From an uncultured Clostridia bacterium (GTDB lineage: Bacteria > Bacillota > Clostridia > Oscillospirales > Acutalibacteraceae): a stretch of 64,000 nucleotides of DNA. The position numbers and the translations under genes are program-made. Below are positions 25,440 to 28,216 of the stretch, one piece after another. The stretch is from the NCBI GenBank assembly GCA_947624285.1, contig CANQJS010000005.1, positions 21,036-85,035 on the forward strand, read 5' to 3'. The notes beneath the pieces were generated by a model. It made no database searches and had not been told where the DNA came from. It was given only the letters and a program-made list of their open reading frames with translations. The stretch's first letter is position 1. Each line of letters starts with the position of its first letter.

Positions 25440-25691
25440 TCAGCCAATGAAAAGAAAGACCAAAAACGCGGCAAGAACAACAACAAAGAACCCGCCGATA
25501 AGCCACTTTGTCATTTTTTCGAGCTTTGCCTCGATTGTGCGCGCTTTAGCCTTACCGAGGAAGGTTTCGGCGCCTCCGGCAATAGCACCCGAAAGATTTT
25601 GCGACCTTCCCTCCTGCATAAGAACAACTATCGTTATAATTATTGATGCTACGATGAGCACACCACCGAAAACATAATGATACCACAGCAT
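25440..25691 (-). CDS. secG: Preprotein translocase subunit SecG
   Basis: A small membrane subunit that assists SecA-driven export through SecYEG. The 83 residues show the SecG pattern: membrane helix at about 6-24, the conserved VLMQEGRSQNLSGAIAGGAETFLGK loop, and a second helix at about 62-82. It has a GGAGGAAG ribosome site, its own promoter at 25728-25756 and its own terminator, so it is a single-gene transcript. Confidence 0.95.
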   Translation of the reverse strand: MLWYHYVFGGVLIVASIIITIVVLMQEGRSQNLSGAIAGGAETFLGKAKARTIEAKLEKMTKWLIGGFFVVVLAAFLVFLFIG

Positions 25692-25756: not shown

Positions 25757-25831
25757 GATTTTTTTTCTAATAATTGACTCGAATTATTTTTAAGGCTTAA
25801 TAATATAATATTAGCAGGAGGTAAGATTATA

Positions 25832-25897
25832 TTGACGCTAATCAAAAACCTAAGCGAAAGGCTTTTTATCCGACTAATTTTGTTTGCCGCGCTTTAA
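25832..25897 (+). CDS. Possible 21-residue hydrophobic peptide
   Basis: The frame from TTG reads (M)TLIKNLSERLFIRLILFAAL and then TAA. AGGAGG lies about 10 bases upstream. The peptide has a basic-amphipathic first half and a hydrophobic end. The TTG start and small size make this uncertain. Support comes from the ribosome site, the enclosing promoter and terminator, and the complementary segment that would shut off translation, an arrangement known from type I toxin mRNAs. Confidence 0.35.
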   Translation: MTLIKNLSERLFIRLILFAAL

Positions 25898-25925
25898 GAT
25901 TTCCGCGTTATTCTTCTTACCTCCG

Positions 25926-25958
25926 GAGCCGCCCCGAAAGGGCGGCTCTCTCATTTTT
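25926..25958 (+). terminator. Terminator of the small plus-strand transcript
   Basis: GAGCCGCCC CGAAA GGGCGGCTC, a 9-bp GC-rich stem followed by TCTCATTTTT. On the minus strand no T run follows, so it works for plus-strand transcription only. Confidence 0.8.
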
Positions 25959-25975
25959 CCGTATTTTAAATGATT

Positions 25976-28216
25976 TTAAAATGTGAGCTGTTCGCCTATA
26001 TCGCCCGCGCTGAGCAACGCGCCTGCGGCAGGAAGATTTTTTGCCCTGAAACGCCACGGCTTTTCAAATTCACCTTCGCTGTAAATGTGGGCGGAAACGA
26101 CCCTGTCGTTCTTTTTCTTCAGCTGCATTACTTTAACGCCCTGCGTGTTTTTGGTGGTTTTCAATGAAATAAGCGCCGTGTTTACAAGAAGCTGCCTGCC
26201 GTTTGAGCAGCAAAGCACTATCTCCGTATCCTCAGGCAGATAAAACGCCGCGGCAAGAGGAGATTTATCGCAATACGCGTTTATCAGCTTTTTCCTGTTG
26301 GTCTTTGTCTGATAAGCGCCTACATCGACCTTCGCGAGCTTTCCGTCCTCAAAAATAAATATCATATAGCCCTTATATTCTTTAAGAACGGCGATATAAT
26401 TACAAGCCTCGCCTTCCTCCATTGCAAGCTTAGCGGGAATATAATCGCCCAACACGGAGGCTTTCGTATCCTGAAAATCGTCTATTTTTGCTTTATACAC
26501 CTGATGCTTTGTTGTGAAGGCAAGCATTTCGTCTCTGTTGGAGCATTCAACGGTTTCAACGATCCTGTCGCCCTCTTTTATCTTCTGTTCGCCGCTGAGA
26601 CGGAGATTTGCGGTGCGTATTTTTTTGAAATATCCCTCCTGCGTTATGAATACGGTAACGGGATAATCGGGCACTTCGGGCGTGTCGTCCTCCTGCTCCT
26701 CCGAGATCTCATATAGTATCTCGCTTTTTCTGCCCGTGTCATATTTTTCGATAACATTTTCAAGCTCGGAAATAATTATTTTCTTGAGCCTTGTATTGCT
26801 TGAAAGCGTTTTTTCAAGATCCTCTATCTCGTTTTCAAGAGTTTCAATATCCTTGATTCGTTTTAAAATATACTCTCTGTTTAAATGGCGCAGCTTGATC
26901 TCCGCTACATACTCCGCCTGCGTCTCGTCGATACCGAAACCTATCATAAGATTCGGCACAACATCCGCCTCGCTCTCCGTTTGGCGGATTATCTTTATCG
27001 CCTTGTCTATATCAAGCAGTATTTTTGAAAGTCCTTTAAGAAGATGAAGCTGTTTTCTCTTTTTGTCAAGAGTAAATTTAATTCGTCTCGTCACGCAGCC
27101 GAGGCGGAATTTCGTCCATTCATTTAGTATTTCACGCACTCCGCGCACCTTCGGCGTTCCGTCAATAAGCACATTGAAATTGCACGGAAACGCCTCCTCA
27201 AGCGGAGTTATTTTGTAAAGGCGTGTCATAAACTTATCGGGGTCTGTGCCGCGTTTAAGGTCTATTGTTATTTTTAGACCCTTGAGGTCTGTTTCGTCGC
27301 GTATATCTGAAATTTCCTTTATTTTATTCGCCTTGACGAGCTCGATGACCTTGTCTATCACCGCCTCGGAGGTAGTTGTCGGCGGGATTTGAGTTATATC
27401 TATGCAATTGTAGGATTTATCGTAGGAATATCTCGCCCTGACGCGTACTGAGCCGCGCCCCGTCTCATATATTTTTTCAAGCTCGTCCTTATCGTAAATA
27501 ACAAAGCCGCCGCCCACGAAATCGGGAGCAATAAGCGTGTCCGAAATAACATGCTCGGGATTTTTTATCAGAGCAATTGTTGTTTCGCAAATCTCCTTTA
27601 GGTTGAAAGAGGCTATGGAAGAAGCCATACTTACGGCGATACCCGTGGTGACATTGCATAAAATCGACGGGAATGTAACAGGCAATAATCTCGGCTCTTT
27701 CATCGTATTGTCGTAGTTATCGACAAATTCGACCGTGTCTTTGTCTATATCATCAAACAGTTCTTTGCATATCGGCGCCAGCTTCGCCTCGGTGTAACGG
27801 GATGCGGCGTACATCATATTTTTTGAATACGCCTTGCCGAAATTTCCCTTTGATTCCACAAACGGATAAAGAAGCGTTTCGTTGCCCCTTGAAAGACGCA
27901 CCATAGTTTCGTAAATCGAAGCGTCGCCGTGGGGATTGAGCTGCATCGTTCTGCCGACGATATTTGCGCTTTTTATTGTGCCGCCCCTTAGCAAGCCCAT
28001 ATTATACATAGTGTATAAAAGTTTTCTGTGAGAGGGCTTCAATCCGTCTATATCGGGGATTGCGCGCGAAAGGATAACGCTCATAGCATAGGGCATAAAG
28101 TTTTTTGTGATGGTTTCGGTTATCACTTCGTTTTTGACTGTGCCCGCGTCCTCAATATGAACATTACTGCTGAGAGGCTGTTCGCTTTCGACATTGTTCT
28201 TTTTTCTCTTTGCCAT
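25976..28216 (-). CDS. parC: Type IIA topoisomerase A subunit (ParC-like)
   Basis: The DNA-cleaving subunit of a type II topoisomerase, 746 residues. The winged-helix/tower region begins SVILSRAIPDIDGLKPSHRKLLY; the catalytic tyrosine is in AASRYTEAKL near residue 122. A coiled-coil region around 430-480 precedes the C-terminal beta-pinwheel. No GyrA box (Q-x-x-GGKG) is seen, and the gene lies after its B subunit in parE-parC order, both favouring topoisomerase IV over gyrase. GGAGGAGGA precedes the ATG. The A/B assignment is firm, ParC versus GyrA less so. Confidence 0.85.
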   Translation of the reverse strand: MAKRKKNNVESEQPLSSNVHIEDAGTVKNEVITETITKNFMPYAMSVILSRAIPDIDGLKPSHRKLLYTMYNMGLLRGGTIKSANIVGRTMQLNPHGDASIYETMVRLSRGNETLLYPFVESKGNFGKAYSKNMMYAASRYTEAKLAPICKELFDDIDKDTVEFVDNYDNTMKEPRLLPVTFPSILCNVTTGIAVSMASSIASFNLKEICETTIALIKNPEHVISDTLIAPDFVGGGFVIYDKDELEKIYETGRGSVRVRARYSYDKSYNCIDITQIPPTTTSEAVIDKVIELVKANKIKEISDIRDETDLKGLKITIDLKRGTDPDKFMTRLYKITPLEEAFPCNFNVLIDGTPKVRGVREILNEWTKFRLGCVTRRIKFTLDKKRKQLHLLKGLSKILLDIDKAIKIIRQTESEADVVPNLMIGFGIDETQAEYVAEIKLRHLNREYILKRIKDIETLENEIEDLEKTLSSNTRLKKIIISELENVIEKYDTGRKSEILYEISEEQEDDTPEVPDYPVTVFITQEGYFKKIRTANLRLSGEQKIKEGDRIVETVECSNRDEMLAFTTKHQVYKAKIDDFQDTKASVLGDYIPAKLAMEEGEACNYIAVLKEYKGYMIFIFEDGKLAKVDVGAYQTKTNRKKLINAYCDKSPLAAAFYLPEDTEIVLCCSNGRQLLVNTALISLKTTKNTQGVKVMQLKKKNDRVVSAHIYSEGEFEKPWRFRAKNLPAAGALLSAGDIGEQLTF

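Follow-up and report, generated by a model that had tools for sequence, protein, structure and literature searches.

A secG-linked small RNA family of Oscillospirales-type gut bacteria, its predicted pairing with spore-protein mRNA, and a derived long form

A noncoding small RNA (sRNA) gene appears to lie between secG and parC in a 64,000-nucleotide (nt) stretch of DNA from an uncultured Clostridia bacterium (contig CANQJS010000005.1; "the window" hereafter means this whole stretch). The source is an Oscillospirales-type genome of ~1.6 Mb with an estimated completeness of 75%. We suggest that the gene, which is divergent from secG, is a derived, long member of a family whose short form pairs with the 5' end of the mRNA of a small acid-soluble spore protein (SASP), most likely protecting it, and we put the probability of this reading at about two in three. 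The observations that carry it are the family itself, its stems, the match between seed and target, and the joint change of the two. SASPs form a protective coat on spore DNA, and it is the forespore that has to use their mRNAs.

In relatives, a short form of the gene is found downstream of parC, in the same place and on the same strand as the window unit. It consists of one hairpin, with variable but paired arms, and a terminator directly after it. The loop sequence is GCGTTTGC, with GTGTTTGT or near variants in a few members, and towards its 3' side it carries an almost invariant seed, GCGUUUGC. Because MAFFT could not align the arms of distant members, covariance models R1, R2 and R3 were built stepwise. 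The alignment of 22 members has 97.4% of its cells paired, with variation on both sides in 13 of 14 pairs; covariation scored 0.98, compared with 0.23 for shuffled and at most 0.19 for slid alignments, and the slid control matters most because the alignment had been fitted to structure. One member (L079) lies on the opposite strand relative to parC, and in six genomes the sRNA adjoins secG without parC. Therefore, this is an independent gene and not a parC antisense RNA. The genus model R1 matches the window over its full length, at 25798-25954, with 18.3 bits (E 0.64 in 786 kb, weak alone), the low score arising because the window has ~65 extra nt relative to short family members and GCGTTATT in place of the loop sequence; R2 matches the locus of the sister species with 14.7 bits. 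Homology is also indicated by the same place, the same strand and a shared promoter block, and no Rfam family reached its gathering score at the window locus or the short-form loci. Together these results support the assignment of the window locus, on sequence grounds, to a previously undescribed sRNA family of Oscillospirales-type gut bacteria. The family is described here for the lineages sampled, nearly all of them represented by metagenome-assembled genomes.

The promoters of the family point to the forespore. Relative to dinucleotide shuffles, the upstream regions of 39 members match the textbook sigG consensus, GMATR-N17-19-CATNMTA, with a z score of 14.1, compared with 9.9 for sigF and 3.7 for sigA. 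SASP leaders match the sigF/sigG consensus more weakly (z 6.6 and 4.0), and sigma factors of the sigF/sigG/sigB type are present in all eight genomes tested. Forespore expression of the sRNA is thus probable.

A search of 12 sRNA-bearing genomes for GCAAACGC followed by a Shine-Dalgarno (SD) sequence and ATG gave 31 matches, where the reversed pattern gave 5. A single gene came up repeatedly among the 31, that of an alpha/beta-type SASP, in five of seven genus genomes. When SASP genes were gathered by PF00269, the leader contained GCAAACGC or a pairing variant in all 34 seed-bearing genomes whose leader could be read and in none of 40 seedless genomes, the window genome and its sister among them. 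With the mRNA start placed from the -10 box, which precedes the motif by a few nt, the motif stands at the very start of the SASP transcript, 14-38 nt upstream of the SD. Downstream of start codons the seed complement was listed at 30 places, with no common leader sequence apparent. In two close f4 genomes (L183 and L198; G106 and G039), GCAAACGC stands directly before the SD of ligA; ligA is a possible second target in those two genomes, which are too few lineages to count.

Seed and target also change together. On a parC tree, the seed and the SASP motif do so in four of four independent pairs. In L078, L081 and L082 the seed is GTGTTTGT or GTGTTTGC (GUGUUUGC/U) and the SASP leader has the matching GCAAACAC, and G020 has GCAAGCGC, which gives a G-U pair. 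Cognate seed pairing was outdone by only 5 of 5000 permutations, the signal coming almost wholly from the L078/L081/L082 clade. The association was also put to use as a prediction: eight genomes had the SASP motif and no sRNA beside parC, and model R3 found the sRNA beside secG in six of them (G404-G409) and found no member in G400 and G410. In seedless genomes R3 found no hairpin carrying the seed, although it also misses the known members in G379 and G395, which makes its negatives soft, and most of the seedless genus genomes were judged by milder searches than R3. Complementary RNA motifs are the same site in duplex DNA, and co-loss and matched change would also be expected if GCGTTTGC/GCAAACGC were a binding site for a forespore transcription factor on both genes, with no RNA pairing at all. 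We regard this as very unlikely. In the sRNA the motif always sits in the loop of a hairpin whose stem covaries, its distance from the sRNA promoter varies, its orientations are strictly opposite in the two transcripts, and three of the four one-sided deviations (L090, L078 and G020) leave a G-U pair; moreover, a DNA site would leave the RNA stem, the terminator and the cis hairpins described below unexplained.

We suggest, then, that a sigG/sigF-like promoter would drive the short form in the forespore and that the RNA would fold into one hairpin plus terminator, exposing the seed GCGUUUGC in the loop. The partner of the seed would be GCAAACGC at the start of the alpha/beta-type SASP mRNA, and the pairing would most likely shield this mRNA from 5'-end-dependent decay of the RNase J type. 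In most seedless species, by contrast, the SASP leader folds its own start into a hairpin: over the first 12 nt of the leader, pairing probability averages 0.68 in these species versus 0.42 in the seed-bearing ones (p 2e-7, kinship uncorrected), and 0.89 in the window genome. The simplest account of both observations would be that the SASP mRNA requires a double-stranded 5' end, supplied either by the sRNA in trans or by a hairpin in cis. The 5'-terminal SASP hairpins of L279, L299, L265, L269, L307 and other seedless genus members are long and diverse, with arms such as TTGCAAG...CTTGCAA or TTTGCAGGGCG...CGCCCTGCAAA.

Precedent for such protection exists in Bacillus subtilis, in which RoxS/RsaE pairs with the extreme 5' end of yflS mRNA, blocks RNase J1 and raises expression (PMC5419742). 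Both cases would place a small RNA on the extreme 5' end of an mRNA. RoxS, however, is Rex-controlled and has C-rich regions and many targets, whereas the new family has one nearly invariant, non-C-rich seed of 8 nt, a forespore-type promoter and one recurrent target, the SASP mRNA, whose protection is proposed. The fit to the RoxS/yflS type consists in the position of the motif and the replacement by a cis hairpin only. The same family and target would also serve an sRNA that represses translation of the SASP mRNA or flags it for cleavage, perhaps so that SASP synthesis is delayed. Most known sRNAs repress, and in some species the motif ends close enough to the SD to hinder ribosome loading. 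We nevertheless consider repression unlikely: the motif keeps to the mRNA start and not to the SD, the sRNA and the SASP gene have the same kind of promoter, and in seedless species a 5' hairpin takes the place of the free 5' end, as a stabiliser would predict.

Several points weigh against protective pairing as we propose it. It is from sequence that we deduce that the sRNA is expressed, that it physically pairs with the SASP mRNA and protects it, and what the long form does, and the SASP transcription starts were placed from -10 boxes. The argument from replacement of trans by cis is a correlation uncorrected for kinship. The four co-changes fall short of significance by a sign test (p 0.125), the matched base change is confined to one branch, and no covariation extends to the pairing flanks beyond the 8 nt, 873 of 5000 permutations being as good. 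The long form is known from two species only and scores weakly with the family models.

In the window itself the gene has the layout of the family, with promoter, covarying hairpin, adjacent terminator and divergence from secG (Table 1). The position of the seed, however, reads GCGUUAUU in the window and GCGCUAUU in the sister locus L029, and the SASP leader of the window genome reads TTGCAAGGGCGATG... and has a cis hairpin instead of the target site. The window copy is, by its sequence, homologous to the family but derived, and not a standard member. The sister species is G021 (L029 and L010 being the same genome), and it is the only other species with the long form among 80 genus genomes. 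The parC tree groups the window with L029 and L030 in one clade, inside the seed-bearing relatives, and the state of the window lineage is therefore derived.

Table 1. Features of the secG-parC interval, in window coordinates
Feature	Position	Strand	Remarks
secG	25440..25691	-	Divergent from the sRNA gene; its usual neighbour in relatives (open reading frame list, tblastn synteny)
TTGACT	25774..25779	+	Taken as a -35 element from the preliminary description; TTTACT in L029; probably not functional
GAATT	25781..25785	+	sigG/sigF-like -35; common to genus short-form genes
TATAATA	25804..25810	+	-10 element, N18 from GAATT; layout close to L115
sRNA gene, noncoding	25815-25955	+	Between secG and parC
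AGGAGG	25816-25821	+	Ribosome site of the preliminary description
GGAGGTAAGA	25817..25826	+	Base-stem 5' arm; contains the GGAGG read as SD; covaries with 25915-25924 in L029
Core block 1	25827..25856	+	97% identity to L029
TTG-started 21-codon frame	25832..25897	+	Judged not a gene; start and peptide not conserved in L029
UGACGC	25833..25838	+	Inside the insert; predicted cis pairing with the seed remnant (minimum free energy fold)
Variable linker	25857..25885	+	48% identity to L029
Core block 2	25886..25908	+	96% identity to L029
GCGUUA, seed remnant	25905..25910	+	Where the family has GCGUUUGC; self-paired in the window copy
TCTTACCTCC	25915..25924	+	Base-stem 3' arm; exact reverse complement of GGAGGTAAGA
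Rho-independent terminator stem-loop, GC-rich	25925..25949	+	Followed by CTCATTTTT; compensatory changes in L029
parC	25976..28216	-	Convergent with the sRNA gene; served for synteny

The preliminary description of this locus, made from the letters alone, had noted the perfect 10-base complement and the one-directional GC-rich terminator, and both hold: the arms are exact reverse complements, and the terminator scan places a T run on the plus strand only. The whole unit folds at -52.5 kcal/mol, compared with -34.3 for shuffled sequences (z -4.8; none of 200 shuffles as low), and without its terminator it still folds better than shuffles (z -3.0); a perfect long-range stem of 10 bp arose in 1 of 300 shuffles. 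Base-stem pairing is kept in the sister, where G-C has become A-U and A-U has become U-A and a single A-C mismatch occurs; the terminator adds two more compensatory pairs. The covariation check that had been proposed for the stem arms thus came out in favour of an RNA. The upstream TTGACT fared less well as a promoter element, as it lies 24 nt before TATAAT (25804-25809), too far for sigma-A, and is altered in the sister; the conserved -35 element is GAATT. From the position of the -10 box, transcription would start near 25815-25817, and the supposed ribosome site AGGAGG would therefore form the very beginning of the transcript.

That description left two identities side by side, a type I-like peptide gene or a regulatory RNA, and the regulatory RNA is the one that survives: the arms and terminator covary, and the sRNA family to which the locus belongs is widespread. 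The other, the mRNA of a type I-like toxin with a membrane peptide of 21 residues and an SD sealed by its own 3' end, can be set aside almost entirely. The AGGAGG, the TTG-started frame and the 5'-3' pairing all exist as sequence features, and type I toxin-antitoxin mRNAs likewise have long-range pairing of their 5' and 3' ends across an SD-like sequence. Unlike them, however, the window locus lacks a conserved peptide, start or SD. In the sister the start codon TTG is TTA and AGGAGG is replaced by GGAAGATA; 8 of the 10 codons that differ between the two species within the frame are changed non-synonymously, the peptide has diverged, and the SD would be the predicted 5' end of the RNA. Homologous 5' arms elsewhere in the family read GACGGTA, GGCGGCA, AGCGGAA or GGAGCC and share no common SD. 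The homologue has lost the reading frame, in agreement with the refuting condition that the preliminary description had set for it, and has kept the complementarity. As to an antisense antitoxin RNA, no minus-strand promoter or terminator inside the unit was listed by the terminator and promoter scan, which works on the letters only.

Conservation within the unit is uneven. Between the window and the sister, the two core blocks are near-identical, the linker has diverged (Table 1) and the promoter is 78% identical, a pattern that, as far as sequence can tell, is that of an RNA and not of a peptide gene. Because the core blocks are so strongly conserved, they suggest a new role for the long form, other than SASP pairing. 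The partnership would have dissolved in the window species and in its sister, the SASP mRNA having its own 5' hairpin and the seed remnant GCGUUA being paired in cis. The long form might instead be a decaying relic of the short sRNA, left over after the SASP gene switched to a cis hairpin, and this has some chance of being right. Both the seed and the SASP motif are lost, the close relative L030 (L030/G034) is wholly without the RNA, which the window and L029 keep in its long form, and the long form pairs with its own SASP leader no better, in duplex energy or pairing, than shuffled sequence does. A relic, however, would not be expected to show 96-97% identity in the core blocks against 48% in the linker, to maintain its stems by paired changes, or to keep promoter and terminator intact, and we therefore incline to retained function.

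Other known RNAs were considered for the locus. CsfG, a well-studied forespore sRNA of B. subtilis under sigF/sigG control, is conserved in spore formers (PMC3574147, PMC8216469) and had no known target as of the latter report. The new family resembles it in the sigF/sigG-type forespore control proposed for an sRNA of spore formers. CsfG is ruled out by sequence and context, however: it has conserved C/U-rich loops and lies between ylbG and ylbH, whereas the new family has the seed GCGUUUGC, adjoins secG and has no Rfam match. 6S RNA (RF00013) shares a closed long-range stem with internal bulges, but its covariance model matches elsewhere in the genome and not at the locus; the genome has its own, separate 6S RNA at G000:C23:2473-2669, with a score just above the Rfam cut-off. 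A mobile element was rejected as well, as the unit has no second copy in the genome and none in viral contigs or plasmids, and its core is present in only 2 of 80 genus genomes, those of the window and its sister. Elsewhere in the window, five tRNA genes are clustered on the minus strand at 1498-1938.

The SASP genes of several relatives have a further peculiarity. After about codon 28 they are split by an insertion of 9-23 kb, at C35:22035-31516 in G408 (L350), C20:7003-19612 in G033 (L348, L349) and C26:154466-177584 in G024 (L351, L352), and fragments are also present in G376, G007, G064, G016, G061 and G027. SASP codons ~20-28 are matched on both sides of the insertion, and a large serine recombinase (PF07508, PF00239) lies beside one junction. 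From its sequence, the insertion resembles a skin-type intervening element, here within a gene of the forespore; excision in the forespore would pass to the spore, unlike excision in the mother cell. In L300, L299, L301-L304, L316, L264, L262 and L263, the SASP frame is altered past GGQMV, continuing as ...NIMCPVRTVHFNREIR or similar, which is perhaps a second recurrent junction, for another type of insertion.

A partner sRNA for any SASP mRNA was not found in the open-licence papers searched. The family described here is a new one, with a target predicted from seed match, co-loss and compensatory change, and it makes forespore post-transcriptional control in mostly uncultured gut spore formers directly testable. 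More tentatively, and with somewhat less than even confidence, we propose that across an order of gut bacteria the forespore sRNA would act as a detachable 5' cap for SASP mRNA, that several lineages would have swapped it for a cis hairpin, and that in the window lineage the sRNA would have gained an insert, locked its seed and taken on a new role. If true, this repeated swap between an sRNA in trans and a hairpin in cis would be a clear case of regulatory replacement.
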